Shown here: positions 7,501 to 41,055 of the stretch, one piece after another
How the letters are laid out: the number at the start of each line of letters is the position of its first letter
Position numbering within the stretch: position 1 is the first letter of the stretch
Source of the DNA: Chromera velia
Taxonomy: Eukaryota > Sar > Chromeraceae
DNA length: 45,006 nucleotides
Reading direction: 5' to 3'
Assembly (NCBI GenBank): GCA_018398765.1
Contig: JAHBMJ010000070.1
Span: 12,501-57,506 of the forward strand
Notes under the pieces: model-generated
Told to the model about the DNA's origin: nothing
Seen by the model: the letters and a program-made list of their open reading frames with translations, nothing else
Databases searched by the model: none
Program-made: the position numbers and the translations under genes

Positions 7501-10500
7501 TGACATACCATGCCAGTGCATCATCAAATCAATTCACACTCTGGCTTGACCCCTGACCTGTCGCACTTCCCCATCGAAGTGGCGTCCCAATTAGAGTCCC
7601 CCGGCCGAAGCGTCAGAATCGAACCACTCTCGCCTTCCCCCTAAGCGCACATAGTCTCACCTGCATGCACACACAAAGCATATCGGGGGTCAGGCCAGGC
7701 TATACTCCATTCCTTCTCGACGACCGCATGTCTTTCTTTTCAGAGTTCTCTATGCAAGCTTACTAGATTGATTTCCCATGCGTGTTACGCAGTCTTTCTT
7801 CTTCTTTTTTCTCTTTTCTCTGATCGTCGCTCTTCTCTCTCGATCACACCCGCCTCTATGCTGATTGAGCCCGAGGTAAAAAGGCACCTCTAATAAGTGT
7901 CTTGCCTCTTTTCTCATCTTCCGTTCCCCTTATTCAAGCCAGTGCACACGCATACATACAACGAAGCATAGACAAAGAGGACCAAAAGAGAAACACCAAC
8001 AAGAAAACAAAGAAAACAAAAAAAACTAACAAACCAAAACAAAACAAAACAACAAGCAAAAAGCGATGCCAGTGACTTGCCCCATCCTCGCAAGTCCACT
8101 GTACCTTCAGGTGATCCTCAACACCATGACATGCACACATCGGAACTCTTACTGATGGAACAACACTCTTTGCTTGACATACCATGCCAGTGCATCATCA
8201 AATCAATTCACACTCTGGCCTGACCCCCGACCTGTCGCACTTCCCTATCGAAGCTGCGTCCCAATCAGAGTCCCCTGGCCAAAGCACCAGAATTGAACCA
8301 CTCTCGCCTTCCCCCCATACGCACACAGTCTCACCTGCATGCACACACAAAGCATGTCGGGGGTCAGGCCAAGCTATACTCCATTCCTTCTCGACGACCG
8401 CATGTCTTTCTTTTTAGAGTTCTCTATGCAAGCTTGCTAGATTGATTTCCTATGCGTGCTACGTATGCAGTCTTTTTTCTTCTCTTTTCTCTTTTTTCTG
8501 ATCGTTGCTCTTCTTTCTCGATCACACCCGCCTCTATGTTGATTGAGCCCGACGTAAAAAGGCCGTACCTCCAATAAGTATCTTGCCTCTTTTCTTATCT
8601 TCCGTTCCCCTCACCCAAGCCTACGTATATGCATACATACAACGAAGCATAGACAAAGAGGACGAAAAGAGAAACACCAACACGAAACCAAAACATACAA
8701 GAAAACACAGCAACAAAACAAAACAAAATAATAAGCAAAGAGCGATGCCAGCGACTTGCCCCATCCTTACAAGTCCACTGTACCTTCAGGTGATCCTCAA
8801 CACTGTGACAGGCATACGTCAGAACTTCTACTGATGGAACAACGCTCTTTGTTTGACACACCATGCCTAGCACCATACCAGTGCATCATCAAAACAATTC
8901 ACACTCTGGCCTGACCCCTGACCTGTCGCACTTCCCCATTAAAGCGGCATCCCAATCAGAGTCCCCTGGCTGAAGCGTCAGAATCGAACCACTCTTGCCT
9001 TCCCCCCATGTGCACACAGTCTCACCTGCATGCACACACAAAGCATGTCGGGGGTCAGGCCAAGCTACACTCCATTCTTTCTCGACGACCGCATGTCTTT
9101 CTTTTCAGAGTTCTCTATGCAAGCTTACTAGATTGATTTCCCATGTGCGCTACGCAGTCTTTCTTTTTCTCTTTTCTCTTTTCTCTGATCGTCGCTCTTC
9201 TCTCTCGATCACACCCGCCTCTGTGCTGATTGAGCCCAACGTAAAAAAGCACCTCTAATAAGTGTCTTGCCTCTTTTCTCATCTTCCGTTCCCCTTATTC
9301 AAGCCAGTGCACACGCATACATACAACGAAGCATAGACAAAGAGGACCAAAAGAGAAACACCAACAAGAAAACAAAGAAAACAAGAAAAACCAACAAACC
9401 AAAACAAAACAAAACAACAAGCAAAACGCGATGCCAGTGACTTGCCCCATCCTCGCAAGTCTACTGTAGCTTCAGGTGATTCTTAACACCATGACATGCA
9501 CACATCGGAACTCTTACTGATGGAACAACACTCTTTGCTTGACATACCATGCCAGTGCATCATCAAATCAATTCACACTCTGGCCTGACCCCCGACCTGT
9601 CGCACTTCCCTATCGAAGCTGCGTCCCAATCAGAGTCCCCCGGCCGAAGCGCCAGAATCGAACCACTCTCGCCTTCCCCCCATGCGCACATAGTCTCACC
9701 TGCATGCACACACAAAGCATGTCGGGGGTCAGGCCAGGCTATACTCCATTCCTTCTCGACGACCGCATGTCTTTCTTTTCAGAGTTCTCTATACAAGCTT
9801 GCTAGATTGATTTCCCATGCGCGCTACGTATGCAGTCTTTTTTCTTCTCTTTTCTCTTTTTTCTGATCGTTGCTCTTCTCTCTCGATCACACCCGCCTCT
9901 GTGTTGATTGAGCCCGACGTAAAAAGGCCGTACCTCTAATAAGTGTCTTGCCTCTTTTCTCATCTTCCGTTCCCCTCACCCAAGCCTACACATATGCATA
10001 CACACAACAAAGCATAGACAAAGAGGACGAAAAGAGAAACACCAACATGAAACCAAAACATACAAGAAAACACAGCAACAAAACAAAACAAAATAATAAG
10101 CAAAGAGCGATGCCAGCGACTTGCCCCATCCTCGCAAGTCCACTGTACCTTCAGGTGATCCTCAACACTATGACATGCACAGTCACGTCAGAACTCCTAC
10201 TGATGGAACAATGCTCTTTGCTTGACACACCATACCAGTGCATCATCAAAACAATTCACACTCTGGCCTGACCCCTGACCTGTCGCACTTCCCCATCAAA
10301 GCGGCGTCCCAATCAGAGTCCCCCGGCTGAAGCGTCAGAATCGAACCACTCTTGCCTTCCCCCCATGTGCACACAGTCTCACCTGCATGCACACATAAAG
10401 CATGTCGGGGGTCAGGCCAAGCTACACTCCATTCTTTCTCGATGACCGCATGTCTTTCTTTTCAGAGTTCTCTATGCAAGCTTACTAGATTGATCTTCCA

Positions 10501-13500
10501 TGCGTGCTACGCAGTCTTTCTTCTTCCCTTTTCTCTTTTCTTTGATCGTCGCGCTTCTCTCTCGATCACACCCGCCTCTGTGCTGATTGAGCCCAACGTA
10601 AAAAAGCACCTCTAATAAGTGTCTTGCCTCTTTTCTCATCTTCCGTTCCCCTTATTCAAGCCAGTACACATGCATACATACAACGAAGCATAGACAAAGA
10701 GGACCAAAAGAGAAACACCAATAAGAAAATAAAGAAAACAAGAAAAACCAACAAACCAAAACAAAATAAAACAACAAGCAAAAAGCGATGCCAGTGACTT
10801 GCCCCATCCTCGCAAGTCCACTGTACCTTCAGGTGATCCTCAACACCGTGACACGCACACATCGGAACTCCTACTGATCGAACAACGCTCTTTGCTTGAC
10901 ATACCATGCCAGTGCATTATCAAATCAATTCACACTCTGGCCTGACCCCCGACCTGTCGCACTTCCCCATCAAAGCGGCGTCCCAATCAGAGTCCCCCGG
11001 CTGAAGCGTCAGAATCGAACCACTCTTGCCTTCCCCCCATGTGCACATAGTCTCACCTGCATGCACACACAAAGCATGTCGGGGGTCAGGCCAAGCTACA
11101 CTCCATTCTTTTTCGACGACCGCATGTCTTTCTTTTCAGAGTTCTTTATGCAAGCTTACTAGATTGATCTTCCATGCGTGCTACGCAGTCTTTCTTCTTC
11201 CCTTTTCTCTTTTCTCTGATCGTCGCTCTTCTCTCTCGATCACACCCGCCTCTGTGCTGATTGAGCCCAACGTAAAAAAGCACCTCTAATAAGTGTCTTG
11301 CCTCTTTTCTCATCTTCCGTTCCCCTTATTCAAGCCAGTACACATGCATACATACAACGAAGCATAGACAAAGAGGACCAAAAGAGAAACACCAATAAGA
11401 AAACAAAGAAAACAAGAAAAACCAACAAACCAAAACAAAATAAAACAACAAGCAAAAAGCGATGCCAGTGACTTGCCCCATCCTCGCAAGTCCACTGTAG
11501 CTTCAGGTGATCCTCAACACCGTGACACGCACACATCGGAACTCTTACTGATCGAACAACGCTCTTTGCTTGACATACCATGCCAGTGCATCATCAAATC
11601 AATTCACACTCTGGCCTGACCCCCGACCTGTCGCACTTCCTCATCGAAGCGGCGTTCCAATCAGAGTCCCCTGGCCAAAGCACCAGAATTGAACCACTCT
11701 CGCCTTCCCCCCATGCGCACATAGTCTCACCTGCATGCACACACAAAGCATGTCGGGGGTCAGGCCAGGCTATACTCCATTCCTTCTCGACGACCGCATA
11801 TCTTTCTTTTCAGAGTTCTCTATGCAAGCTTGCTAGATTGATTTCCTATACGCGCTACGTATGCAGTCTTTTTTCTTCTCTTTTCTCTTTTCTCTGATCG
11901 TCGCTCTTCTTTTTCGATCACACCCGCCTCTGTGCTGATTGAGCCCGACGTAAAAAGGCCGTACCTTTAATAAGTGTCTTGCCTCTTTTCTTATCTTCCG
12001 TTCCCCTCACCCAAGCCTACGCATATACATATACACAACGAAGCATAGACAAAGAGGACCAAAAGAGAAACACCAACAAGAAAATAAAATATACAAGAAA
12101 ACACAGCAACAAAACAAAACAAAATAATAAGTAAAGAGCGATGCCAGCGACTTGCCCCATCCTCGCAAGTCCACTGACAGTGTACATTTAGGTGATCCTC
12201 AACACTGTGACACACATATGTCGGAACTCCTACTGATGAAACAATGCTCTTTGCTTGACACACCATACCAGTACATTATCAAATCAATTCACACTCTGGC
12301 CTGACCCGCGATCTGTCATACTTCCCCATCGAAGCTGCGTCCCAATCAGAGTTCCCCGGCTGAAGCAACAGAATCGAACCACTCTCGCCTTCCTCCCATG
12401 CGCACACAGTCTCACCTGCATGCATATACAAAGCATGTCGGAGGTCAAGCCAGGCTACACTCCATTCCTTCTCGATAACCGCATGTCTTTCTTTTCAGAG
12501 TTCTCTATGCAAGCTTGCTAGATTGATCTTCTATGTGCGCTACGCAGTCTTTCTTCTTCTTTTTTCTCTTTTTTCTGATCATTGCTCTTCTCTCTTGATC
12601 ACACCCGCCTCTATGCTGATTGAGCCCAACGTAAAAAAGCACCTCTAATAAGTGTCTTGCCTCCTTTCTTATCTTCTATTCCCCTCACCCAAGCCTACGC
12701 ATATGCATACACACAACGAAGCATAAACAAAGAGGACGAAAAGAGAAACACCAACAAGAAACCAAAACATACAAGAAAACATAGCAATAAAACAAAACAA
12801 AACAAAAAGTAAAGAGCGATGCCAGCAACTTGCCTCATCCTCGCAAGTCCACTGTACCTTCAGGTGATCCTCAACACCGTGACACGCACACATCGGAACT
12901 TCTACTGATGGAACAACGCTCTTTGTTTGACACACTATGCCTAGCACCATACCAGTGCATCATCAAAACAATTCACACTCTGGCCTGACCCCTGACCTGT
13001 CGCACTTCCCCATCAAAGCGGCATCCCAATCAGAGTCCCCCGGCTGAAGCGTCAGAATCGAACCACTCTTGCCTTCCCCCCATGTGCACACAGTCTCACC
13101 TGCATGCACACACAAAGCATGTCGGGGGTCAGGCCAAGCTACACTCTATTCTTTCTCGACGACCGCATGTCTTTCTTTTCAGAGTTCTCTATGCAAGCTT
13201 ACTAGATTAATCTTCCATGCGTGCTACGCAGTCTTTCTTCTTCCCTTTTCTCTTTTCTCTGATCGTCGCTCTTCTCTCTCGATCACACCCGCCTCTGTGC
13301 TGATTAAGCCCAACGTAAAAAAGCACCTCTAATAAGTGTCTTGCCTCTTTTCTCATCTTCCGTTCCCCTTATTCAAGCCAGTACACATGCATACATACAA
13401 CGAAGCATAGACAAAGAGGACCAAAAGAGAAACACCAATAAGAAAATAAAGAAAACAAGAAAAACCAACAAACCAAAACAAAATAAAACAACAAGCAAAA

Positions 13501-16035
13501 AGCAATGCCAGTGACTTGCCCTATCCTCGCAAGTCCACTGTACATTCAGATGATCCTGAACTCCTACTGATGGAACAACGCTCTTTGCTTGACATACCAT
13601 GCCAGTGCATCATCAAATCAATTCACACTCTGGCTTGACCCCTGACCTGTCGTACTTCCCCATCGAAGTGGCGTCCCAATCAGAGTCCCCCGGCCGAAGC
13701 GCCAGAATCGAACCACTCTCGCCTTCCCCCCATGCGCACATAGTCTCACCTGCATGCACACACAAAGCATGTCGGGGGTCAGGCCAGGCTACACTCCGTT
13801 CCTTCTCGACGACCGCATGTCTTTCTTTTCAGAGTTCTCTATGCCAGCTTGCTAGATTGATTTCCCATGCGTGCTACGTATGCAGTCTTTCTTCTTCTTT
13901 TTTCTCTTTTCTCTGATCGTCGCTCTTCTCTTTCGATCACACCTGCCTCTGTGCTGATTGAGCCCAACATAAAAAGGCACCTCTAATAAGTGTCTTGCCT
14001 CCTTTCTCATCTAAGACTTCCGTTCCCCTCACCCAAGCCAGTGCACACGCATAACAAAGAGGACCAAAAGACAAACACCAACAAGAAAACAAAAGACACA
14101 AGAAAACACAGCAACAAAACAAAACAAAACAACAAGCAAAGAGCGATGCCAGCAACTTGCCCCATCCTCGCAAGTCCACTGTATATTCAGATGATCCTCA
14201 ACACCGTGATAAGCATACGTCAGAACTCCTATTGATGGAACAACGCTCTTTGCTTGACACACCATGCTAGTACATCATCAAAACAATTCAGTGATACACT
14301 CTGGCCTGACTTCCGACCTGTCGCACTTCCCCATTGAAGCGGCATCCCAATCAGAGTCCCCCGGCCGAAGCACCAGAATTGAACCACTCTCTAGACCACT
14401 CTCACCTTCCCCCCATGCACATACAGTCTTATCTGCATGCACACACAGAGCATGTCAAGGGTCAGGCCAGGCTACACTCCATTCCTTCTCGACGACCGCA
14501 GGTCTTTCTTTTCAGAGTTCTTTATGCCAGCTTGCTAGATTGATTTCCCATGTGCGCTACGCAGTCTTTCTTCTTCTTTTTTCTCTTTTCTCTGATTGTC
14601 GCTTTTCTCTCTCGATCACACCCGCCTCTGTGCTGATTGAGCCCGATGTAAAAAGGCACCTCTAATAAGTGTCTTACCTCCTTTCTCATCTTCCATTCCC
14701 CTCACCCAAGCCCATGCATACGCATATACACAACGAAGCATCGACAAAGAGGACCAAAAGAGAAACACGAACAAGAAAACAAAAGACATAAGAAAACACA
14801 GCAACAAAACAAAACAAAACAACAAGCAAAGAGCAATGCCAGCAACTTGCCCCATCCTCGCAAGTCCACTGTATCTTCAGGTGATCTTCAACACCGTGAC
14901 ATGCATAGTCACGTCGGAACTCCTACTGATAGAACAACGCTCTTTGCTTAACACACCATGCCCGTACATCATCAAAACAATTCACACTCTGGCCTGACTC
15001 CCGACCTGTCGCACTTCCCCATTGAAGCGGCATCCTAATCAGAGTCTCCCGGCCGAAGCACCAGAATTGAACCACTCTCTAGACCACTCTCACCTTCCCC
15101 CCATGCGCATACAGTCTCATCTGCATGCACACACAGAGCATGTCAAGGGTCAAGCCAGGCTACACTCCATTCCTTCTCGACGACCGCAGGTCTTTCTTTT
15201 CAGAGTTCTTTATGCCAGCTTGCTATATTGATTTCCCATGTGCGCTACGCAGTCTTTCTTTTTCTCTTTTCTCTTTTCTCTGATCATCGCTCTTCTCTCT
15301 CGATCACACCCGCCTCTGTGTTGATTGAGCCCGATGTAAAAAGGCACCTCTAATAAGTGTCTTACCTCCTTTCTCATCTTCCATTCCCCTCACCCAAGCC
15401 CATGCACACGCATACACACAACGAAGCATCGACAAAGAGGACCAAAAGAGAAACACGAACAAGAAAACAAAAGACATAAGAGAACACAGCAACAAAACAA
15501 AACAAAAAGTAAAGAGCGATGCTAGCAACTTGCCCCATCCTCGCAAGTCTACTGTATCTTCAGGTGATCCTCAACACCGTGATATGCATAGTCACGTCGG
15601 AACTCCTACTGATAGAACAATGCTCTTTGCTTGACACACCATGCCAGTGCATCATCAAATTAATTCATACTCTGGCCTAACACCTAACCTGTCGCACTTC
15701 CTCATCGAAGCGGCGTCCCAATCTGATTTAGAGTTCCCCGGCTGAAGCGCCAGAATCGAACCACTCTCGCCTTCCCCCCTATGCGCACACAGTCTCACCT
15801 GCATGCACACACAAAGCATGTCGGGGGTCAGGTTAGGCTATACTTCATTCCTTCTCAACGACTGCATATCTTTCTTTTCAGAGTTCTCTATACCGGCTTG
15901 CTAAGCCTTTATTGATTTCCCATGCGCACTGCATAGTCTTTCTTCTTCTCTTTTCTCTTTTCTCTGATCGTCGCTCTTCTCTCTCGATTACACCCGCCTC
16001 TGTACTAATATACTGATTGAGCCCGACGGAAAGAG
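4540..16035. repeat. Satellite array, 17 tandem units of about 677 bp
   Basis: One motif (ATGCCAGCGACTTGCCCCAT and close variants) recurs at 4688, 5363, 6040, 6713, 7392, 8066, 8745, 9431, 10110, 10788, 11462, 12141, 12819, 13505, 14146, 14836 and 15519. Spacings are 641-690 bp, mostly 673-686. Each unit has a pyrimidine-rich tract of about 50 nt, an A-rich tract of about 110 nt built on AAAAC, and a conserved GC-richer core with an inverted repeat. Many 60-105-codon open frames recur on both strands, but the frames of neighbouring units are not continuous (677 is not a multiple of 3) and they resemble no protein, so I read the array as non-coding. The first unit is partial at its left end, and the last degenerates near 16020. 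Role unknown: it could be centromeric, subtelomeric or simply expanded DNA. Confidence 0.95.
6189..6346. repeat. Conserved inverted repeat inside a satellite unit (example copy)
   Basis: CTGGCCTGACCCCCGAC at 6189-6205 is the exact reverse complement of 6330-6346. The two 17-nt arms enclose 124 nt. The same pair occurs in every satellite unit at the same place, with point changes in some copies (for example about 7543 and 14305-14470). The segment could form a hairpin or cruciform, or be a small TIR element that was present before the array amplified. Unit-to-unit changes in one arm are not regularly compensated in the other, which argues against strong selection for pairing. Confidence 0.85.
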
Positions 16036-18344: not shown

Positions 18345-21300
18345 TCAAGAATCGGGATTGGCTCTTTCGTGGCTCTCAGTCGAATTTTCCCACGATCTGA
18401 CGGAAGCTTTCAAGGATTCTTCCACCACGACATCTAGCTCCCTCTTGTCGGCCCGTGTGTCCAATAAGTACGAAGGCAGGTGCAGACTAACGACCCTCCA
18501 GCCGTCCCTCTGAAGGAACCAATGCTTGAATACAGAACGCCCGTGGAGACGGAGACGCTGCTTCAGAGGCCCACCCAGGGACGGAGTCGGAATGGCTTCA
18601 TCTACTCCGTGCGCAGGAATCCTTCGAGGAGTCTGGGGGGAATTGACTGTCTGTTTCTGCGCCCCTTCAACGACCTTTTGAGGCACACGACTTGGACGGG
18701 GGGACTGCCGAGGGGGGAGGGGGGGGGTTCCCACACGAGAGGACGCAGGAGGGGCTGGGGGAAGAGGAGAGACGGAAGAGGGCGTCGGAGGCAGATGTGC
18801 AAGTACAGGACGGCCTTGCATTTTTGCTCTTCCCTCTCTTCTGAAATAACTTGGGTTTTGGGGGTGTGCATCGTGAAGGGGCGTGCTGCACATGGAGGTG
18901 TGGGAATGTCTTTGTGCTTCGTTTGTATCCTGGTGCGGAATGGTAGGGGGGTTCTGTGGGAGATTGCCTCTCTCTGAAATTGGCCTCCTGGGGGATAGAG
19001 GAGGGGGCAGGGGGGCATTGAAAGGCTCGGCCGGCATCTCCAAGACTTCCGTGTCTCGGCCGGGGCCCTTTTCCAGAAGGGACCTGCCGGGGCCGTCTCT
19101 TACAGATGTAGTTAGGAGGCGGCAGGCGGTCTCGACATGAGGTGCGTTTTGGACAGCAACTTCCTTTCGAGAACGGGTAGGGACAGGGGAAGGCACTTGA
19201 AAGGGTTTCCGTGTGTGCACAGGGGGCCGTCCCTCTCCAGGTCGGCCGCTTCTACTTTTGTGCTGCAGGCTCATCATCTGATGGGTTTCTGTGTGGGCCA
19301 TCTCATCTGACACTCCGGCAAGGCTCTGTACTTCGCCACTTCCTATCGGACCCCCTACATTTCTTGATGTTAGAGAGGGGTCCCCAAAATACGCATCATG
19401 CGAGTATTTATTCTCTGCAGCTGCGTCTGCCCGGACAAGAAAATGCGAAGCACCGTCCACCTCCACAGCCAGCCGGAGAGAGGGGACAGCAATATCCACC
19501 AACATCCCCGCGCCCCCAACCGGTTCCTCCATCCTCCAATCCACACACTCAGATGGCAAAGGCGCAGAGGAGGTCTGTTCTTGGAGCTCAGGACAGACAG
19601 AGTAGAGGTCCGCGTAAGTTGGGAACCGCTCGCGAAGGTGTCCAGCAACCTGCAGAGTCAGAAGAGGAGGTGCGAGGAAGCAGAGATGCTTCAGAATTGA
19701 GCAACCGACCATGAAAAAAAGAAACCTGACGATCATCTCGAGGGGGTATTTGAGTTGAGAGGAGGAAGGGAAGACAAGTAAGCAACATGCTTCCTGGTAT
19801 AGTGGATATTGAAAGTTTTTCCTCCTCCTTCCGATCTGACGGTCAAGTGAACTTCTTGTCTTTGAAACTTCAATAAATTGTCAGGAAGTGAAAAGGAGTT
19901 GAGAGAATTGGTTCTCCTCTGTACCTCTTTTTCTCCGGTCGGACTGGCTGAGTGAGGGAAGAAAAAAGAAAACGAAATCTTGTGAATGCAGATCATTCTG
20001 AGCGCACTCTTCCAACAATCGATTGGCGGAAAGGGAAAGAGAATTTGTTGAAAGACTGTCCACTGTACGTGAGGGGGGAAGGAAGAGACGAGGGAGTGAG
20101 GCGGTCTCTTCTCAACGCGAAAGAGAAGAGAAGAGAGGAACACAAAGATAAGGAGGGCGCAGGATTGTCTTCCCTTCTCACACAGAGACTGCAGTTGCCT
20201 GCTTCATGCGCAAACAAGTACAACAAAGTGCTTAAGCAAAGCATGTATGGGTTACGATGAACAGGAGAGCAGGAACGAACATAGAAAGGAAGCCAGCAGC
20301 CACGGAAGCAAATGAAGGGAAGAAAGCGAAGAGAAGAGAGGGGACGGTGGAAAGGAACGAAGAACAGGGAACGGGTGGAAGAAAAGAAGGCAAGGAAGGA
20401 TGATGACAGAAAAAAAAGGGGGGAAATAAACAAGAGACAACCCACCCACCATCACATGCAACCTGGATGTTGAGGCTCGAAAGTCGTGTGCACTCATCGA
20501 CCTCTCATGTCTCGAGAGCACAGACAGACTCTCAAGCCAGCCTCCAGACGTAGAGCCAGACTCTTCACTTTCATTAGTCAAATCTCTTCTCTCAGAAAGA
20601 CTTTCCCCCTCTTCTTCCTCTTGTCTTTGTCCTTCTCCCTCAATTCTCTGAAAGGACTCCCTCTTCCCTTCAGCAACTCCCCCCACACGCTCCCGTCTGA
20701 CTGTCTTCAATCCATGGAGAGCCCACGTGATTTTCTGTGCCGCCTGCACATGTCCTGCAATTCTGTCAGGCGGCAGAGTCATCACCAGCGCCTCCGCGCG
20801 TTCACACACAGACAGGCCTTCAGGATTCCTCACCCCCCCCGACACCACTGCTGCCCAAAAGGGCCCACTCAGAAGGTGCAGGGAGCCCTCCGTCAGTGCC
20901 AGGGAGAGACGAGACACCCCTCCTGACCGAGCTATCGACTCGAAACACTCCACACTTGCACGGAGACAGAGAACAGCAAGTCTTCTTGCTTCTCTTACTA
21001 CCTCGATCTCGTCTGGTAACATCGTTGAAGCGTCCCGTCTTTTTGCTTCCTTCCCGATTTCCCCTCCTCTCTCTTCAAGCAGTTCTAAGTCAATGTGACC
21101 AAGAGAAGCAACTGCAGCAACACAGGGTGTGAATCTGGCGAGGTCTGTGTTGCTGATTCCCAGGCCTCTCCCTCTGTGCCCCCCCCCCTCTACCGGTTGA
21201 GAACAAAGACCCGAGAGATGAACTGAAAGAAGCCGCATCAACGGAAGCTGGGCGGAGGGAGACAGGACTCCCACATAATTCAAACCCATCAACGCAGCAG

Positions 21301-28701: not shown

Positions 28702-31700
28702 TTACCATGCAAACTTAATCACAAAAGCAGGAAGCGTACGGCGAGACTCCCTGACAACAAAAAATCCAGTGGTGTGGTCACTTTTCTTGCAGACACGGGC
28801 TCGGACGAGAAGCATTTTGCTGCCTCCTCTACAATAACTATGGGAAGTGTTCGGGTCGCATCCCAAATAAACGCCCCTCCCATGTGCATCTCCACTCGAA
28901 ATCCGCACACCGTCTTCCCCCCCCGCTTTGAGACCGTTCTCTGCGATGCTCATCATGTTCTGTTCCGGCGTGCCGTGCACACAGATGTGCTCTTCAAGGC
29001 GACAGCCGCACTTCTGTTCGTGCGCCTTGCTTGCCGCCTCGAACTCCTTCAAAAGCTGAGGGTTGTTCACCACCTCCACTCCCTGGACCTTCCATGTGGA
29101 GTGGGCCCTTAGGCGAAGAAAACCTGCCTCCGCAATGCACCACTGCTGGGCGTTCCGTTCCAGTCAGGCACGCTCAGCGCGGAGGGAGGAGGTCGGGTCA
29201 GGTCAACCAGCGGCCTCCTGGAGGAAAGAACGCGTGGAGGTGCAACGGCAGCCTGCGTAGAGGTGTCAAAGCGCACAACGAATTTGGGGAGGGCGAGGGC
29301 CTCATCGTAGATGATCAACTCGTCGTTCCGCACCCCCCCGTGCCGAGTCGTCTCTCTAGGGGCCATGACAGAATCAAATCCTGCCATTTGCATCTTCGAA
29401 AGATCCACATCGAACCATCTTCCCTGACTGTTCTTCTTGACGGCATCACTCAATGACTTCGGCATCTTCGTGTTGAAGCCCGCACTCAAATTCAGAACGC
29501 GACCCTTCACGACCTCACAGACGATCAGAAGACCGCTGCCCTTCGTGTACAGTCGCTGCGCGGACTTCGTGGAGTTTCTCGCGAAGTACACACCCTGCCC
29601 GAACATGTTTGTGTCCTTCCTCTCAGGCAGCCGGAAACCAGTCTTGCAAATGGCATCCGTCGCCTCGGCAGTGGTCCCATGAAAGAGCAACTCTGGGTCG
29701 AGCTGGTGGGGTCGTGTGTGTCTGCATTCACGCAGCCGTCTCTTCGCTTCGTGAAACCGTTTGGTTAGGGATGCGTTGACGACGACTTCGATGTCCACTA
29801 CGACGAGGGCACCGTGGTGCGCTTGCAGCGCGGAGTGCTCGGTGAGGTCCTTGATTCGGAGGTACTGGTCGCCCCAGTCGGGGTCCTCGTGGGTGATGCG
29901 GCGTCTGACTATGTTAGTGCGCTCGAGCTTCCGGAGTTCTTGCTGGCCCTCTTCGTGAATCATGCGGAGGACATCTCTGTTCATCTCCTCCAACTTCCTT
30001 TCCTCTACCTCTCGGAGCCTCTCACACTGACGGCACTTGTCGGGGTCCAGACAGGGGTCTGAACACTTCTGCGTGCACGGGTGACTGTATGCACACGCAA
30101 GGGGGCGGTTGCAGATGGAGTGACAAACGACACGGTCCACCTGCTGATTGCAGTGCTTCTTCAACTCCTTGTGGGAGGGGTCGCGGGGGCAGGGGATGAG
30201 CTGCTCTACAGAGCACTCAGATGCCTCCAAACACCTCTCGCCACAGCGATTCGGACAAACATGACCACAAGAAAGGGTGCGCAGACAGGGTCTCTGACAG
30301 TCGAGCGGTTCATTGCGCAGAGAGCACTGCGTCTTACCGGGACGATGACACTTCTGGCACGTAACGGAGACGGGAAACTTGCATGCACGGCTCCCGTCCT
30401 CTTCCCGCACTCTGCACTGCACAGTCCACTTGTGCTTGTCGGGCTCTATTTCACAAACCATCTGCACACTGTCCGTGCAGAGGTCCGCCTTGTGGAAACT
30501 CTCATTGTCCCCGTGACAGGTCAGACGGCACTCATGCAGACGGCATTCTTTCACACAACCGCACAGCTCTCCGCAGAGAGACAACTCAGCAGACGGGTCT
30601 AAACTGTCGGGGGTGCTGCTGGAGAGCTGTCTCGCTTTTCCCTTGTGCTTGTCACAGGAGAGCTGCAGAGTTGAGGTAGGACTGAGGGAGTTGACAAGAG
30701 CGCCCCATACAGGGGCGGGTCGGAAGGTGGCAGCGTTTCCGACAAACACCACCAGGCTGCGGGCACGGGACTGTGCGACGCACCTTCTGTTTCTTTTGGA
30801 AAGGAACCCGATCCCTTTCTTCTGGTTGTTTCGGGTCATCGACACAATCACAACGTCATCCTCGTCCCCCTGGAACTCGTCAACTGTCACCACATTCACA
30901 CGCCGGTCCTCCCGACGGAGGGGCCCCGGCATGCCTTGCCCCTCGCCCTTGCCCATTCCCCCCTCCTGGGGCCTCTTGTGGGCCCTGTGGGGGTCCACGT
31001 AGACTACTCAGGCAAGCCTGGAGTCACTCCGTGCGAAGTCCTCAACCCTGCGACGGATGAGAATCTTCTGCCCAACATAGGCAGCAAGGATGGTGACTGT
31101 CATACCGCAGTTGCCTGCGATCAGCAGGGCCAAACGCACGCACAGCTCTGCCTCGTTAGAGTTGCTCTTGGAGGTCGACGAAGGCCCCCCTCCTCCTTCA
31201 GACAGGTCCCCTAACTCGGGGTGTGCGTGGTCCCACCAGATGGCGTGTCTGGCACTGGGGGAGGATCTGAGGCAGAAGGGAAGGGGGATCTCGGATACTC
31301 GCGAGTGGTTGTCCCTCAGATGCGGATAAATATCCAAAAGAAGCCGGGAAATCTCCGGATGCATCCTGTTCTGCATGGACAGTTGGCAATTGCCCCTCAA
31401 GCCTGCCTGCAACAGTCTCTCGAACATGGAAACATCAAAGCGGTTGTGAAGGACAAGATCGTAGCTGTTCACAGGCGGTCTCAGCTGTTCGTGGTCGCCT
31501 ATGAGAATGAGGTGTTTGACGGAAGGGGGGAGCGCTGCTCTAAGGGCGGGCTCGCTGATTTCTGCTGCCTCTTCGACGATGCAGACGGTGGGCTGGAGCT
31601 CTCTGAGCAGATCCATCTGGATGCATGCGTTGGTGATCGTCATCGCAACAACGCGGGCATGGGTCTTCAATGCGTCTGCATCTGAACGGCACTGGGCACC

Positions 31701-34700
31701 TCTTAGCTGGCGCTGGACGCTCAGGAGCGTGCGTGAGTGCTCTCGGAGGTGTTTGATTTGGGGAGAAATCCTGCGGAGGATCAGACCGAGAGCCAGCGGC
31801 TATGCGTCAGTGAGGGGGTCGAGAGCCTCTAGCTCGGCATCGCTCTGAGAGGATGACGCAGAAAGGGGCAGGGAGGGAATGAAACGATTGTTTTGGGACT
31901 CCAACTGGAGGGCAAAATGGAGGAGACGGGTGGGAGAGAAGTCAATGGGGAAGAACTTGCTTCTCTCTTCATCGTCCTTCTTTCCATCCTTTCCCTTCTT
32001 CCCTCCCCTATCCCCCCCTGTCCAAAGAAGATTCTCTAGTTCTCTCCTCTCCCGCGTCTCCTCTATCACCGCCTCCTCATCCTCCTCTATCTCCCCCCCC
32101 TCCTCCCCCTCGTCTGATGACCCGTCCTCCTCCACATGTCCCTTCTCAGAACCTCTCCCTTGAGCCCCCCCTGTGTGTTGCTGCGTCTTCTGTGACGGAC
32201 CACTCGAGACTTTCTCGCCCGCTTTCTTCCACACCGCAACCCTGCCTCCAGTCCCCCCCAAAGCAACAGAGGTCGAATTGGAGGGAGAGGGCACAGGCAA
32301 AACAGCAGGCACCCACGTGGACCGCGTGGGACCAGAGGAGGACAAGGAGGAAGTGGAGGGTCCTTCCTGGACGACTCTCTCTGTGTGGCTGGCTGCTTTG
32401 GGGTTCTTCGAGGATTGTTGGGTTTGGGGAAGAGGCTTGTGAGGCGGAAACGGGTCGGTACGGAGCGAATCGGGTGCGCGCTCATTTTTGAGGTGGGAAG
32501 ACTTCCACCCCTCTACCGCGAGAGCGAGAAGACGCCACTCATCCCTGTCGGAGAAGACCGACGAGATGGCCTTCCCACTTGCCAATCTCCCAATTACAAC
32601 CTTCTTCAAACCCTCCCAGTACCTCCGGTTGTCCTCATCGACAGCCTTGTCCTTCCTTCTCCGCGCAAGCTCGCGCACGTCTGCGAGCGCAACGATTTTC
32701 TGTACGGCTTCTACCCCCATCCCATCACGAACATCCTCCGGACCGAGAAGGGAAACCACGAGGTCTGCGGGGGTCTGCCGATGCCCGCTGGTCTGGGAGG
32801 ACAGAGACGGGTCCTGAGAAACGTACAGAAATAGGGGGAGAAAGTAGAAAGTTATTCCTTCTGTTGTCACACTGGAAAAAAACATTGTCATGTCCTGCTC
32901 CTGCCACTTTTGTTGTTTTCAAAGCGCTGTATGCTTTGTGTGCAGACAAACTTCTAATGCAAAAAAGTACTGAGTCTGCAAACGCTTCGATTCGTATTTT
33001 TGTGAGACAAATTAGAGCGTCCCTCTAGGATTCAACGAGGGTCGGTCGGCAGAGAGCAGGCCGGGGAGAAATTGAGGAGTCTGATACTACTGGAACTTCT
33101 TAATCAAACAAGCTGGCTGACCTCTGTGTCGCCATCACCCTTCTTTCTGGCGTTGCCAAACATTCCCTCGAGTGCACTACACAGACGCCGAAGCTCAGTC
33201 TCCAAATCTTTCCTTTTCTCGAAAAGCGATTCTCCCTCTCCCTTTGCCGCCTTCCCCTTCCGCTTCCTCCCCCCCCCCAACAAATCCTCATCCTCCTCCA
33301 TCTGTTGCCGTCTCGAGTCATTCCTGACCCGGAAAGATGCCAACGAACACGCCTCGAGCTCCTCATCCTGACTCCGGCTGCCAAGCCGCGCCACCACAGA
33401 GAAGCCCATCGCCCGACCGCAATGTTTGGAGAACTCATCTAGTGCATGATTCTTGTAGGTCAGCACTAGCACGGGACTCGCACGCCCTCTAGAGAAGGAG
33501 GCTGAACCTCTGAGTCCAAATTGATCTGCTTCAAAGTGCTGGTGTAAAGTGTCCCACAGCATCTCTGCAACCATTGAGCCTACAAATGTCTTTCCCGTCC
33601 CCGGGGGACCCTGCACGAGGGCCAGGCGATGGGACAACGTCGCCATCACCGCTTTCTTCTGCTTCTCGTCAAGAGAGACCTCTTGCTTCATCTGTATGCT
33701 CTTGCGCCTCTCCACCTCCCTCACCCTCTCTTCCAGAGGCACACAGTCGTGCTGGAGATACTCAGGGGGTCCGTTCTCCCCCCGCACCTGCACAATCAAA
33801 TCAGACACCGAGGGACCTCTCAAGGGGCCTGGGGGAGGTTCCACGTCTTCCCCTCCCTTACATCGCTGAAGGGACCGAAGGACTGGCTCCACGCTGTTGT
33901 AGTACACAGGGGACCGGAGGGCACACAGCTCCCTTTTGTCCCCCAAAACTGCAAGCGCACGCAGGCCCGCGTCTGCCGTGCGGCTCTGTTCCCCCGCCCT
34001 CAAATTCCCGCTTTCCCCCCCCGCGTCGATCTGCTGAAGAGACCTAGGCTGTAAATCGAGCACCAGAGCTCCACTCGCCCCTCCCTCCATAACGTCCTCA
34101 ACAGTACAAAAGAGAAGCTCGGAAAATCCGTCTCCCAGACAGAGACAGAGAAGCTCACCAAATTTGACCTGCACCCGTCCCCCCCCCCTCCCCTTTCCCT
34201 TCACCGGGGCCCTCCACGGTCTCAAACTGACGCACAGATTGAAAGGCGATTCGAGGGGCCGAGCCGCGGCACTCACGCGGAGAGTCCGCACGCCCTCAAC
34301 CCGGCAGCGGCAGAGGAATCGCTCCTCAATCCTGCTGGGTGCAGACCCACCCCTCAGCTTCTGCACTAACTGCCTCAATTCACCATGCATGTCCTCTCTC
34401 AACAACTTCGCGTACGTAGAGAAGTACTCTGACGCAGACGCGTACGTGTTTTGGACCACTGGGAGTGCCGTTTTCCCCCCTCCCCCTTTCCCGACCGACG
34501 GGTCGCTTCCCCCTCGAACAAGAAAGTCCAATGCGCAGGGGAGTGCAGGAAGCGAATGCCACGGCATGTGCTGCACGCTCCCCGTGTGGAGCGCCAGCCC
34601 CTCCTCCATTGCATCTGACACAGTCTGTGCAAGTGCCGCAAGAACCCCACCCGCTGGACCCACGGAGAGCGCACGGAACAGCGCAAAGCAGTCGTTCAGC

Positions 34701-35794
34701 CCACGGGGAGTCAACGCAGACCAGCAGCCAAGAAGGGAAATTGCCTTGACAGCACACGAGCTGCTGAGCCCCCTCATTCCTCCCCTTGCAGCGGAGATCA
34801 ACTTCCCACTGCACTGCATCAGGAGTTTCTGCACTACTGCAGCCACAGCCCCGTTCGCATCAGTCAGACCGCACAAAGCCCTGAAGTCTCTCCTCCCCAA
34901 CCGCTGTGAGGCTTCACTGAACTTCCAGAGAAGCTCGAAAGACTCCTCAGTCAATCTCACACTGTCCCCCCTCCCTCCCGATTCCTCCTCTTCCGTTGAC
35001 AAGGCAGAGACGGAATAACGGAGACAGCAGAGAACGAAGGCACACCACGCCGCAGAGTTCCATGCCTTGTCGTCTCCGTGCGAGAGGATGCGCTCCGCCC
35101 CCTTCTTTTCCTCCCACGCCTTTGCCTGCTCGACCATCAGTCTGAACTCATTCACACGCGGCCCCCCACCCAAGTGCCCCCGTCTCCCCTGCCCCCCGGC
35201 TTCGCTCAACGTCATGTGCTGGACAATCACTGTCGGACCCTTTCCGAAGTCTTTCACCACCGCCTTCACAGACACAGAGTCACCCACTCGGAGCATGATG
35301 GGTCCGGTTCGCAGAAGATCTTCCCTTTCTCCATGCGCGGAGGTGCAAGAGAGAAAGGGAATTGAGTCACGAGAACCCTGACCGGTCATCCGCCACCTAC
35401 CCAGCCAGCGAGAAATTTATGTGCTATCGATCGAGATATTTGGATGTTGGAGCTAGCAGTGGGACGAAATGCAGAGAAACGAGGAACGTCAAACAGAGAT
35501 GGGACAGAGGCGGAGACGTGAATGAAGCAAGTCTTGCGTGGAGAACGGGTATACTCGAGCACCCGTCTGCCATGCAGCACCGCGATCAGAATTCGCCCCT
35601 TCTAACTCACTTTTTGGTATGGCCAGCTCCATCGGCAGGGTCGTCGCCTCTTCACAGGTGTTTCTTTGAAGTGTGTCTTCGGATAGACGAAGTCTGATCG
35701 AGTCCCCAACTTCACGCGTGACGGTAGCCAGGCCCTCCAGGCGCCCAAGGACGGGGACAGCCGGATTCGCAGGCCTCTTGTCCTTGCCTTTCAT
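28702..35794 (-). CDS. ZNFX1-like SF1 helicase with NFX1 zinc fingers and two PARP domains
   Basis: Six minus-strand exons (35794-35611, 35328-33122, 32813-31858, 31770-31047, 30965-29124, 29082-28702) join in phase through GT-AG introns, giving about 2,097 residues. UPF1-type SF1 helicase: Walker A GPPGTGKT about 635-642; motif Ia VLTYKNHALDE about 682; motif II VEEAAE about 1181; motif III GDHEQLRP about 1207; motif V VDEFQGDEDD about 1385; motif VI RCVAQSRAR about 1418. Residues about 1460-1670 are Cys/His-rich NFX1-type zinc fingers (CGELCGCVKECRLHEC, CLRTLSCGHVCPNRC). PARP domain 1 (about 1740-1925) has H1786 (LFHGT), Y1817 (GVYFA) and E1906 (NDELIIYD), an intact H-Y-E triad. PARP domain 2 (about 1990-2097) has H2007 and Y2043, but Phe 2078 stands where the Glu is expected. 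An Asp/Glu/Ser-rich insertion fills helicase domain 1B (about 900-1060). ZNFX1-type helicases act in RNA surveillance and antiviral sensing, and PARPs use NAD+ to ADP-ribosylate targets. The fusion suggests RNA-triggered ADP-ribosylation, which is inference. Start chosen: ATG 35794. Confidence 0.85.
29083..29123 (-). other. Very short intron (41 nt) between the two PARP domains
   Basis: The donor GGCAG|GTTTTC and the acceptor AGGTCCAG|GGAGTGG, both phase 0, join the end of PARP domain 1 to the VEVVNNPQLLKEF start of PARP domain 2, which lies in another reading frame. Without this intron the second domain could not be translated with the first. A frameshift or a separate gene are the alternatives. 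Confidence 0.55.
30966..31046 (-). other. Short intron (81 nt) in the helicase-PARP gene, containing an in-frame TGA
   Basis: A TGA at about 31008-31006 interrupts an otherwise continuous frame between helicase motifs IV and V. An 81-nt intron (donor CGCAGG|GTTGAG, acceptor GGCCCCAG|GAGGGG, phase 0) removes it and leaves a linker of plausible length before VNVVTVDEFQG. The donor is weak. Confidence 0.4.
31771..31857 (-). other. Short intron (87 nt) in the helicase-PARP gene, containing an in-frame TAG
   Basis: The frame is otherwise continuous through a TAG at about 31802-31800. Removing 31857-31771 (donor CTGC|GTCATC, acceptor CCTCCGCAG|GATT, both phase 2) eliminates the stop and restores the frame to helicase motif II. 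The donor is weak; a nonsense mutation cannot be excluded. Confidence 0.45.
32814..33121 (-). other. Predicted second intron of the helicase-PARP gene
   Basis: The donor ACAGAG|GTCAGC and the acceptor GTTTCTCAG|GACCCG are both phase 0, with a pyrimidine-rich end. Length 308 nt. It separates the Walker A/Ia exon from the acidic-insert exon. Confidence 0.65.
35329..35610 (-). other. Predicted first intron of the helicase-PARP gene
   Basis: The donor AAAAA|GTGAGTTAG is strong and the acceptor GCATGGAG|AAAGGG follows a CT-rich tract. Both are phase 1 and join ELAIPK to the REDLLRTG segment. If instead translation began at the ATG at 35389, the N-terminus would differ. The splice model is preferred because the upstream frame stays open and has sensible composition. 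Confidence 0.55.
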
Positions 35795-36443: not shown

Positions 36444-39400
36444 ATGGAAATCCCTCCACGGCTGCAGCAGCTGTTCAAGGAGGTGCCTGCAGAATGGCAC
36501 GCAACTGCTCTGAGGGCCTTGAAGGTCGCAGAGGCGTACGCAGGGACGGGCAACAGTGAAGGACGCCAAGGGACACGTCTGGTTGTGTGCAAGGTTGATG
36601 ACTTCCTTCCCAAGGGTGACGACGCTCAGACTGGGGTGGACGCAGCATCTCAGATAACAACCTCATATGGAGGTGTGAGCAAGGACAACATTCGGAAATT
36701 CCCCAAAGACATCAAGACTGAAGAGGGGAGGAGTGACTTGTGCGAACGGATGAACGACGACGGGGCACTCATCATTGACGGTCCAACCGGTGAGTTTGGG
36801 GCCTAGCTCTTGCTTCCCTCTAAAGTATCGGGTCTTACTGTCGTCTCACTGGCATTCATTCTGCCCTCTTCTCTGTGTCTCCCTTGTTCTCTCAGGTGAG
36901 TTTCGGGCCTCCGGTTTCCGTCTGAAGTACGAAGGGACAGCACCCTCCACTGGGGGGGGGCTAGGTGCAGCAGCTTCCCAGGAGTGTGCAAAGAATGTGC
37001 CCGCCTTCGTGGTGATGGTTTCAAAGGACGGTGCTATAAAGGTCTATGCAGGAAAAGCAGATCCTGTAGTCTGGAAGGGGGACAGAAAAGTAACGCCTCC
37101 CCAAATTCGTAAAAGATATCCCCCCAGCCTGAAACCGCGTAGAGGACAGGGAGGGGACGACTTTTTCTTTGGCAGAAAAGGACCCTTGGAGCAGCTGCTA
37201 GGATGGGTGGGCAGTGACAGAGAAGAGGGGGGGGGGCAGGGTGTCAGCGAAAGTTTTGTGCAGGGAGAGCCGTTCATCCTCATCTCGGGAATTGGGGGGG
37301 TGGGCAAGAGTCAGTTGGCCTGCGAGGTGCTCCACCGTTGCGAGTTGCCTCTGACAAAGATTTGGATCAACGCAGCCTCGCCTGAGCGTTTGCAGAGAGA
37401 GTTAGAGCAGCTTTGCGAAGACTTCAAGGAGGTGGGGGTAGCAGTCTCCAGTAGTTCTCAGCTGCGTGGGTGGTTGGAGAGAAACCGTCACTGGATTCTG
37501 GTGGTGGACAATTTAGAAGACCCAGAGCTTCTATGGGATTTCATTCCGAAAAACCATAACGGCACAGTGGTGATCACCTCTCGTGATGATTCCAATCCCA
37601 TGACACCCCCTCCCAAAACGATGAGACTCGACACACTGCAACTCCCAGATGCCCAGATACTTCTTCAGACACTCGGAAAGAGGCCCGATGACGTCAGTGG
37701 TTCCGAAAAGCTTGCAAAGGTTCTCGGTTGTCTGCCTCTAGGCCTCGTGATGGCTTCCTCCCTTGTCGCACAGAAGAGAGGGATGCTGTCTTTCTCTGCT
37801 CTGGCAGAAAGAGTCGAATCAGAGAGGGAAGAGGTGGTGGCGTTCCTGGAGAGCATAGGGGAAGTGCAGGAATGGACTGGGTATCAGCACAGCATCATTA
37901 GTCTGTGGAGACAGCAGAGGGAATTCCTTTGTGAAAATGGGCTGAAGAGGGCAGCCGTGGTGATGGAGTGTCTCTCCTTCGCAGACAGAACCGAAATCTC
38001 TCACGAGATCTGTCAAATGGTCAGCCGGCGTATAGCGCGGCGTCGAATGAAGGAATTGACTCCATGAAGACGAAAGCGCTTGTCCAAACTGCAGCACTTT
38101 GTTTGAGCATTCATTTATTTATGCATCCATTCATTCATTCATTCATTCATTTACCCATTCTCTCAATCACTTAATCAATCATTCGATCAATCCAGTCGAC
38201 CATCAATCGCCCGTGAATTTATTTCTTCATTCATCCATGCGCTCATCATTCTTCTTCATGGTTCTTCGTGATGCACGTAGACTGGGAGTCCTCGAACGAC
38301 AACCCAGCGCTGATGGTTTCCCACTGAGCGAACGTTTGTATCTTGACATTTTACTTTCCCTGCCTGTCTCGCTCGCAGATATTTGAGACGTGCAAAGCCA
38401 AGGACGGCAACACGGGTTATGGCGTGCAGTCCGGAAATTTCTCTTCCTGTGTCAACGCTCTTCCTGCGCAGTCTCTCTGTACAAGACTGTCAGAGGAACA
38501 GAAAGCAGAAAACAAACGAGGAGGTTTGGGGGGGTCAATTGTGCCTACCGGGTTTCAGAGAGAGGAGTTTGCAGTGAAACAGTGGTACACCATTCATGAG
38601 CTCACGCAGCTTGCCGTCCGTATGGAAATGCGAAGAAAATTGGGNNGGGGGGGGCACAGCTTCAGAGGAGAAAGAGCGTTTCAATCTAATGGCATGGGCG
38701 ATGTTTGTGGGCAGACGCACGAGCAGGTGGGAGCCCGAAGATCTCGAATGCAGATTTCCCACACCGTCAGGCAGGCACACCCACCAGCTGCAACTGTTGA
38801 AAAGATGGGCCCACGCGGTTGAGAAGAAAGAGGCGTGGGCAGAGGTGGAGGTTGGGGAGGTGAGGGCGCTGATGCTGTTGTGTCTCTGGTTTGAGAGACT
38901 GTTCTTCCAAGTCCACTGGAGTCAGCGTATCCTGCGTCCGTGGCTATTGAACGAAATCGAGAAGCACTGGTCTAAAAGTCGATCTCAGTCTGGTTCTGTG
39001 CTTGTTGCAGAAATTGTCAGAGAGTGCCTCCTCGAAGTCGTGTACGATGAGAAAGTGCACCTCGGAAAGGCGGTTGCCGTTCTTGCGCACATTCTTCGGA
39101 GTTTCATATGGGGCGATGTCGAGTGGCAGGGGACTTTGTTTGCACACATCGCGAGGGACAGACAAGACTCTGTCTCTCTACCCTACCGATCTCTCATCAG
39201 AATGCTGTCTCTGAAGATCCCCCACCTTTCTATCAGACCCAGAATCCCCCTTCTGCTAATCAGCGCTCGTCATCACCTCCAAGAGGGGGATGGCGAGGGG
39301 GCTGCTCGGCTCCTTCTCCTGTTGACCGACGATGTGAGCAAAAGAGGAGTCTCAGAGTTAAAGGGATTCATTCAAGAGATTAAGCCGTCTCTTCAAGATG

Positions 39401-41055
39401 CCCTCTCCCTTCTCCAGAATACCCAAGACGCAGCATGGCACTCTGCCCCTCGAGTCTCTGCTTCCCGCTCCTATGTTGTCAAACAGATCACAAAGGAACC
39501 CCCCAATAGTGATCTCATCTCACGGCGTCACCTCTTCGCCTCTCTTGTATGCAAGGCCGGACTTGAGCGGCTCCTCGGGTACCGCGCTCGCTCTGCAGAG
39601 ACTCTGGGCATGGCCTCCGCGCTGTTGCCCGACCGTTTCTCTGACGGCTTCCGCGGTCAGTTAAGCGCTGTCCTTCCGACCCTTGCGAGTGGCAGCGGTA
39701 TCCGTATCGAGTCTGCCAGTGCAGCCGCGGACCGTTTCTCCCCCGACACTTCCCCAGTGGACTGTGAAGATCTCTCTGCATTCTTCAGAGCAAGAAACGC
39801 GATGTGGACAGAGGTCGGAAACAAGAAACCCACGCAGACCCCCACCGCAAGAGCGATGGGAAGGGGCTGCCTCGAAGTAGCAGCATCGATAGACCAGGCA
39901 GTACAGCAGAGTCGGAAAGTTGCCGAAAAGAGGTTTGAGGAGGACCGCCGTCTTGCGAGGCTATTTGATTTTTTGGACCTCATGGTCGTGGGTGAGTATG
40001 CAGAGGCACACGCACGTCTTGTGCCTGTCTTTCTCAGCACTCTGACCGCAGAGGGGGAGAACAGTCCCTGGGACTGGAAAGCACGGTTCCAACTCTTCGT
40101 GCTCCTCGCATACATCCAGCTTATCCCTCAGCTCTCACAGCAGCAGTTGGAGAGTGGGGGGATCTCCTTACCTAACCCAGAGCTAGCACTTCAGACGTTC
40201 AGCCACAAGGTCTCTCGAGGCTTCCCAGGAAGGTCAAACAAGTTAGCAAGTCTCCAGAGGATGTTCAGTGAGGCCCCCTCTCTGTATCGCTACGAGCTCT
40301 TTGAGTTTCTTGTGTGGCGCGCAGTCGACAAATTCGTTTCCGAGGTGTGTGGAGAGGGGGACGGGAGTCTTGAGGGAAGCTGCCTAGAGGCACTCGAGCT
40401 CGATTTGCAGGAGGCAGTGGGGGGGGAAGACACATTGGGGTGGACGGGGTGGGAGAGAGAGACAGCTCGAAGCGTTTCGTTCTATCCAGAATTCGAAAAG
40501 TGGAGACTTTTGCATCCAACGAATAGAGGAATTCTCTACTGGCTGCTCCCTGCTTCAGTCCGTCTCCTGCAGGAGAGGGGGCAAGTCGAGAGAGTCTCGG
40601 AGTTCGAGAGAATGGGAGAGATTTGCATGGTGATGGAATCTGATTCAGAGCCTTTGGAGGTTCACCGAGAGTCGGTAGAGAGAGAGGAAAGTCCGCCTGT
40701 TGCAGCACTTGAGAGAAGGAAGAGTGTTGTGTGGGCAGAGGTCAAGGCAGCGTTAAAGGAACGAAACAAAAAAAGAAAAGGGGGAGAACCGCCGCTTTTG
40801 CTGGAGCTTCCCAGAAAATTCAAAGAGCTCTCTTTTCTGGAGGATAAATTCCACATTGAAGGAGCTCGTTTCATCTCTTCCGTATCACAGGAGAGTCTCT
40901 CTAGGAAGTCTGTATTCTTCTCAACGATCATGACGATGAACTTCAGGCAGATGTCCCACGACGATTGTATGGAGTCGAAAAAGCTGAAAGACCTCTCACC
41001 GGACGAGCCCATTCACAACAGACTCTTTCTCCGGGTGGTGTGGAATGAAGATTGA
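36444..41055 (+). CDS. NLR-like STAND protein: DisA_N/DAC-like domain, NB-ARC ATPase, helical C-terminus
   Basis: Exons 36444-36789, 36896-38019 and 38379-41055 join by phase-consistent GT-AG introns, giving about 1,380 residues. Residues 20-170 resemble DisA_N (DAC-type) nucleotide-binding domains. There is an N-terminal helix with ALRALKVAEAYA, a strand TRLVVCKVDD, the DGA signature in DDGALIID (106-108), then GGGLGAAAS and FVVMVSKDGAIKVYAGK. The RHR motif needed for diadenylate synthesis is not seen; GGLGAAAS stands in its place, so sensing is likelier than synthesis. NB-ARC: FFFGRKGPLEQL (about 205), P-loop GIGGVGKS 247-254, Walker B ILVVDNLED about 316, RNBS-B TVVITSRD about 339, GLPL-type LGCLPLGL about 392, and after the winged helix YTIHELTQLAVR. 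The remaining 800 residues are mostly helical, TPR-like in look but without clear repeats. STAND ATPases switch by oligomerising on ligand binding. Undetermined bases at 38645-38646 break the frame inside a G-run. Confidence 0.8.
36790..36895 (+). other. First intron of the NB-ARC gene (106 nt)
   Basis: Donor ACCG|GTGAGT and acceptor TTCTCTCAG|GTGAGT, phase 1, join DGPTG to EFRASGF. The intron's first bases (GTGAGTTTGGGGCC) nearly duplicate the first bases of exon 2 (GTGAGTTTCGGGCC). Confidence 0.85.
38020..38378 (+). other. Second intron of the NB-ARC gene, with CATT microsatellite
   Basis: Donor CAAATG|GTCAGC and acceptor GCTCGCAG|ATATTT, phase 0, length 359 nt. The interior has a (CATT)n run at about 38105-38150 and related CAAT words, and stops in the coding frame. 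Splicing joins EICQM to IFETCKAKDG inside the predicted winged-helix region. Confidence 0.65.

Follow-up and report, generated by a model that had tools for sequence, protein, structure and literature searches.

A diadenylate cyclase-related head on NB-ARC proteins and a caspase of Chromera velia

The 45,006-nt stretch of Chromera velia DNA analyzed here (the window; positions 12,501 to 57,506 of contig JAHBMJ010000070.1, assembly GCA_018398765.1) carries at 36444–41055 a gene whose N-terminal module, hereafter the head, belongs to a family homologous to prokaryotic diadenylate cyclases (DACs) and is fused to an NB-ARC ATPase domain. Sequence comparison within the genome further revealed that the family lacks the RHR motif and that the head has spread to other proteins, including a caspase. 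We interpret the gene as encoding an NLR-like receptor of the STAND class, in which a module derived from a prokaryotic-type DAC may now act as a coupling adaptor common to receptor and effector; this interpretation, which draws on sequence and on analogy with known systems, is given a probability of about 0.45. The occurrence of the head on both receptor-like ATPases and a caspase suggests that it was co-opted as a sensor or connector within a pathway of cell death or defense. Catalytic inactivity, oligomerization, recruitment of partners, and a role in defense or death are what we infer for it.

Gene structure and fusion of the head to the NB-ARC

The locus reads as a single plus-strand gene with three exons, predicted to encode the DAC-like head, the NB-ARC and a long C-terminal region, and it runs from an ATG at one end to the stop codon of the last exon at the other. 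Exon boundaries rest on the sequence and on comparison with paralogues from the same assembly (177.8 Mb in 4040 contigs), which was the genome used for all own-genome searches. Its features are as follows.

36444..36789, plus strand: exon 1, with the start codon and the first two thirds of the DAC-like head, to DGALIIDGPT
36790..36895, plus strand: intron 1, 106 nt, GT...AG, inside the DAC-like head
36896..38019 (3' end approximate), plus strand: exon 2, with the last third of the head, a linker and the NB-ARC; probable 3' end taken from paralogues
about 38020..38378, plus strand: intron 2, predicted; the start of exon 3 is conserved in three paralogous loci
38379..41055, plus strand: exon 3, with the end of the ARC part including IHEL (38592) and the long C-terminal region
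36495..37065 (intron included), plus strand: DAC-like head, about residues 18–172, from profile-profile alignment to prokaryotic DACs
36759..36767, plus strand: DGA motif, residues 106–108
36955..36978, plus strand: GGLGAAAS, residues 136–143, occupying the place of the DAC RHR loop
37273..37833, plus strand: NB-ARC match, with P-loop GGVGKSQ at residue 249 (37294)

The last third of the head shares exon 2 with the NB-ARC, and among the paralogues the two domains lie in one open frame at C637, C357, C371, C1207, C2930, and C2089. They also share a frame at C247, but with two stops late in the NB-ARC; at C2219 the head shares a frame with the beginning of the NB-ARC, the remainder of which lies in other frames with a stop, and C1771 has its head divided between two frames, with a stop, the second half sharing its frame with the NB-ARC. 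Because head and NB-ARC share an exon and the paralogues hold both in one open frame, we do not consider the fusion an artifact of exon joining. The first-pass annotation of this DNA had proposed that a protist protein joins a DAC-type domain to an NB-ARC STAND ATPase, which profile comparison and the shared exon bear out, and had named transcripts that separate the domain from the NB-ARC exon as one observation that would speak against it; such transcripts are unlikely, given the shared exon and the stop-free single frames of C637 and C357.

The annotation's description of the NB-ARC as complete fits the motif set, found by eye; the Pfam score is 23.2 bits (E 4.8e-5), just below the cut-off of 23.5. 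The motifs are GGVGKSQ, WILVVDN, TVVITSRDD, and CLPL, which we take to be the P-loop, Walker B, sensor and GLPL motifs, and, in exon 3, IHEL, presumably at the place of MHD. A Pfam NB-ARC search of the genome returned seven places, the window not among them; these paralogous NB-ARCs (47–70% identity or remoter) scored 30.4–47.4 bits, over the cut-off, and all seven carry a head. Searching with the NB-ARC of the window gene added the gene itself (contig C70), C357, C2219, C3595, and a decayed copy on C34. At C3595 no head was found in the 1.5 kb upstream examined, a stretch that runs into N, and near the C34 copy only a 27-residue head fragment matched, so that 10 of the 12 NB-ARC loci among the best candidates of both searches carry a head. 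Three heads and the decayed NB-ARC are clustered at about 21.6–31.2 kb of contig C34 (L022, L009), with a remnant of the common C-terminal region between two of the heads. A NACHT domain was found at one place in the genome, with no head in the stretch examined.

Exons 1 and 2 join in frame over intron 1, which was called because the coding sequence of the paralogues runs unbroken through that point. Over their first 14 nt, the intron and exon 2 are identical except at one position (13 of 14 match; 36790–36909), and the sole match to the intron sequence in the genome was the intron itself. With the compared paralogues intronless there, intron 1 looks like a recent gain through a short duplication. 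The first part of exon 3 was compared at eight loci and has 41–52% identity to C1771, C637, and C2219; parts of its start also match C357 (18 residues) and C34. Two N at 38645–38646, inside a run of G, shift the exon 3 frame; sequence on both flanks matches C1771, and we take the interruption to be an assembly gap. The frame that continues after it (start 38596) is 36% identical to C1771 over residues 28–773, and shorter pieces match C637, C2219, and C34. A Pfam scan of the 819-aa C-terminal region gave no match and no recognized LRR, TPR, or WD40 repeat. Bacterial contamination as the source of the gene was rejected by inference from its introns, simple repeats and the distribution of the family over many contigs. 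Matches of alveolin type occur at 11 places in the genome, although the alveolin model also responds to Caulobacter, used as a control.

Homology and motifs of the head family

A search of the genome with the first 204 residues returned 22 places at E up to 0.1, two of them being the gene's own exons and several others pieces of one gene. The genome contains paralogues, and these matches, with the dN/dS values given below, speak for more than chance. Profiles were built from 14 close heads (A1), from four distant, group-2 heads (A2), three of which precede an NB-ARC while the fourth, L009, does not in its frame, from two heads located after an RRM-like stretch (A3), and from 15 heads jointly (A4). 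In the suggested comparison with PF02457 the head of the window gene alone matched nothing in Pfam; remote homology of the family is supported by the profile alignments below. A PF02457 search of the genome returned three places (L008, L009, and L010), the window not among them. The group-2 head L009 scored 29.0 bits, above the cut-off of 27, and L001 (23.7 bits) and L005 (20.0 bits) scored below it. At E up to 5 PF02457 matched four of the 14 A1 members (best 3.9e-4), and it was the only Pfam family to match more than one of them. Names of the DACNV type, which we presume to denote DAC-like sensor families, turned up an unrelated paper in the literature and had no match in the Pfam scans made.

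For comparison, a prokaryotic set (A5) was gathered with a DNA pattern for the GLGARH..AAA loop, giving 89 stretches, 19 of which contained a DAC-like frame by eye; 13 of these were used, so that the loop is invariant in the set by construction. Three of the 13, checked against the Pfam DAC family, scored 73–86 bits; we take this class of enzymes to be DacZ-like. Aligned to these enzymes with hhalign, A1 scored 68.2 over 135 columns (best of 100 column-shuffled controls, 20.2), A2 scored 69.7 (best shuffle of 100, 26.2), A3 scored 41.5 over 83 columns in the first half only (22.4), and A4 scored 96.1 (19.8), on which basis chance resemblance was rejected. Against the PDB, the first seven of the 12 matches to A4 were solved diadenylate cyclases (best E 1.1e-5), and DisA came twelfth. 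The case for homology with DACs is statistical, and it is carried by the head family rather than by the head of the window gene alone. Matches to A4 were also found in 33 of 149 genomes of prokaryotes from one phylum (centered on a Planctomycetota genome), with 20 of 35 places spanning the domain among the best candidates. A bacterial DAC–STAND fusion, sought among the same best candidates, was not found in the part examined: of four A4-matched frames of at least 690 aa, the two inspected (G071 and G024) are of CdaA type with RHR or RHA, and no STAND part was seen in them. None of 14 stretches in a collection of genome contigs that fit a peptide pattern for relatives of the group-2 heads was confirmed, and a plasmid search found no relative of head L001.

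A tree of 37 rows was computed from 20 heads, L008, the 13 GLGARH-type DACs, and three CdaA sequences, leaving out heads L007 and L028 as half-length or frame-broken. The 20 heads form one clade (support 99/99) on a long stem beside the GLGARH-type DACs and apart from CdaA, to which they are related as members of the same superfamily but with which they do not group. Descent of the heads from one GLGARH-type DAC is our best reading; it stays short of proof because the DAC classes in the tree are the GLGARH type and CdaA only. With GLGARH-loop DACs the heads share near full-length homology, the N-terminal helix, the GT..VV.D strand, DGA and the VS..G.I..F strands; they differ in being eukaryotic, in having no RHR, and in being fused to an NB-ARC or other modules.

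The RHR motif is needed for DAC catalysis. We aligned 22 heads, among them L028 with its frame broken toward the end, together with L008, leaving aside fragments L030 and L031 as well as the detached N-terminal piece of C1771. At the expected place the motif was present in none of the 22 heads, nor in L008 (0 of 23 rows). The window gene has GGLG there and the distant group GTGH (three heads) or GTGY (one); most of the 22 heads carry a glycine-rich loop at this place, which differs between groups. DGA is exact in 14 heads, that of the window gene included. The first-pass annotation had pointed to both features, DGA and a GGLGAAAS in the place of RHR, and both stand. Because RHR is absent, we class the head as a DAC homologue and not as a diadenylate cyclase, and its motifs suggest that it no longer makes cyclic di-AMP (c-di-AMP). 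One report (PMC6741144) describes the Asp of DGA as contacting ATP bound by a second DAC molecule and infers that DacZ forms dimers or higher oligomers. Ratios of nonsynonymous to synonymous substitution (dN/dS) between paralogues were 0.12–0.30 in seven of 10 pairs, values that are rough given the high dS of 1.2–2.2 in these pairs; dS was saturated in the other three. One of the seven pairs (with L018) covers the head region almost alone.

Two further DAC-type sequences were found in the genome. L008:1333–2280 (minus strand, contig C508) is a CdaA-type homologue scoring 59 bits to PF02457, with DGV and RHL in place of DGA and RHR, and it groups with CdaA in the tree on a very long branch. L010 (contig C2260) is DAC-like, with a family match over the last third only; by eye, the positions of RHR and DGA are taken by GHRHSS and TSA, respectively.

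Heads on other proteins and the proposed role

Beyond the NB-ARC proteins, locus L019 (contig C3747) encodes, in one 700-aa frame, a head together with half of a caspase, the first (PF00656, Peptidase_C14, 33.1 bits). A match to the other half follows some 0.7 kb downstream in the same orientation (28.9 bits), and both halves probably belong to one gene; by eye, the His-Cys pair is represented by AGHG and DCC motifs. In L029 and L032 the head comes after another stretch, which in L032 just passes the RRM cut-off (20.9 vs. 20.7 bits) and in L029 passes none. L018 and L024 have an unnamed C-terminal segment in common, by eye. Two loci have candidate additional parts of the same gene: downstream of the head of L025, an LRR_6 match falls in an open frame of its own, and L024 has a fragment of a P-loop ATPase that scores below cut-offs. 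A kinase in L020, suggested by motifs seen by eye, was supported by neither Pfam nor PDB and is not claimed.

The N-terminal domain of NLRs is usually an output or coupling module, and DAC domains work in catalysis as face-to-face pairs. We favor a coupling adaptor because one domain occurs on both an NTPase core and a caspase, because its paralogues are lineage-specific, and because of this face-to-face pairing; its place on a caspase points toward output or coupling rather than nucleotide sensing. In the mechanism we propose, the C-terminal region would detect a trigger, the NB-ARC would exchange nucleotide and oligomerize, and the clustered heads would draw in effectors that also bear a head, the caspase among them, by the face-to-face pairing inherent in DAC domains, in a manner analogous to CARD in Apaf-1 or to the predicted action of effector-associated domains (EADs) in bacterial conflict systems. 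For EADs, PMC7159879 predicts homotypic coupling where one domain occurs on an NTPase core and on effectors with lineage-specific paralogues, with CARD and Death domains as precedent. The present family resembles EADs in that one domain occurs on both an NTPase core and a caspase-type effector, with lineage-specific paralogues, and differs in that a second EAD copy often lies in an adjacent gene, an arrangement not seen here; no second head was found within the 45-kb window.

Several observations weigh against a coupling adaptor. EADs are small domains without enzymatic features, whereas the present head descends from an enzyme, and the DGA and glycine-rich loop kept in many heads are equally compatible with ligand binding. 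Only one of the seven caspase places in the genome carries a head, the other six being headless in the stretch examined, and the headed caspase lies on contig C3747, apart from the window gene on C70. Among the PDB sequence matches, four unrelated chains (E 0.31–0.35) rank before DisA in the A4 list. With A1 by itself the cyclases come up no better than E 0.48, on a par with dehydrogenases that are unrelated (0.67), and A2 alone retrieves no cyclases.

A close rival, which we rank just behind the coupling adaptor and regard as having perhaps one chance in three, is the possibility raised in the first-pass annotation, that the head is a nucleotide sensor, binding ATP, c-di-AMP, or another cyclic dinucleotide without turnover, with the ligand opening or locking the NB-ARC. 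The exact DGA of 14 heads, the glycine-rich loop of most, the purifying selection indicated by dN/dS and descent from a nucleotide-binding enzyme would all fit such a function, and the other DAC-type sequences L008 and L010 might make the ligand. Set against this are the loss of RHR from all 22 heads, the absence of an exact DGA from eight of them, the lack of any known ligand, and an N-terminal position that in NLRs is more often output than input. Plant TIR domains in NLRs make a nucleotide signal on activation, and a head that is still an enzyme with an altered active site could do likewise from the same N-terminal position, with DGA and the loop kept in many heads; we hold this to be improbable, as no head has RHR and the loop varies between groups. 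That the head is a decayed relic, or was joined by chance, and has no function of its own is very unlikely: stops do occur in several copies (C247, C1771, C34, and C2219), but the low dN/dS, in one pair for the head region almost alone, and fusion at ten loci in two diverged groups speak for its maintenance. Convergence onto the DAC pattern from a different fold, the least credible explanation, could appeal to the missing Pfam match of the window head and the weak PDB results of A1 and A2 alone, but is contradicted by a profile score over threefold higher than any of 100 shuffled controls, by DAC being the sole Pfam family with matches in at least two of the 14 A1 members, and by cyclases heading the A4 list.

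NLR-like receptors are already known, those of plants, animals, fungi, and bacteria differing mainly in the N-terminal module. Like the NB-ARC NLRs and AP-ATPases (Apaf-1, plant R proteins), the C. velia protein has an N-terminal module, an NB-ARC with its motif set by eye and a long C-terminal region; unlike them, it has a DAC-derived head in place of CARD, TIR or coiled coil, and no recognized C-terminal repeat. No DAC-derived N-terminal module, and no DAC–NB-ARC or DAC–caspase fusion in a eukaryote, was described in the titles and abstracts searched, which covered few subscription papers; the passages of PMC7539657 examined make no mention of Chromera. Such a head would link the world of c-di-AMP enzymes to NLR signaling and would be an example of an enzyme domain turned into an NLR head among close relatives of the apicomplexan parasites. 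The family also supplies a short list of partners for direct testing, namely the NB-ARC receptors and the single caspase that shares their head. More speculatively, and with rather less confidence than for the coupling role, we envisage a eukaryotic NLR/caspase network built on a horizontally acquired DAC that lost catalysis and would now serve either as a homotypic "death domain" or as a cyclic-dinucleotide receptor wired into NLRs, which would give a STING-independent route from nucleotide signals to regulated cell death.

Neighboring features of the window

GC skew is strikingly constant over eleven kb of the window, from about 5000 to 16000, at −0.31 to −0.34 per 2-kb interval; a search for tandem arrays with periods of up to 500 found none there at a score threshold of 300. 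A 463-aa frame at 18348–19736 (minus strand) has a weak RAP-domain match (19.8 bits vs. a cut-off of 24.2). Closer to the gene, the minus-strand frames 29112–30998 and 33107–35389 encode parts of a superfamily-1 helicase (AAA_11, AAA_12) and a PARP catalytic domain, and are perhaps one helicase–PARP gene.

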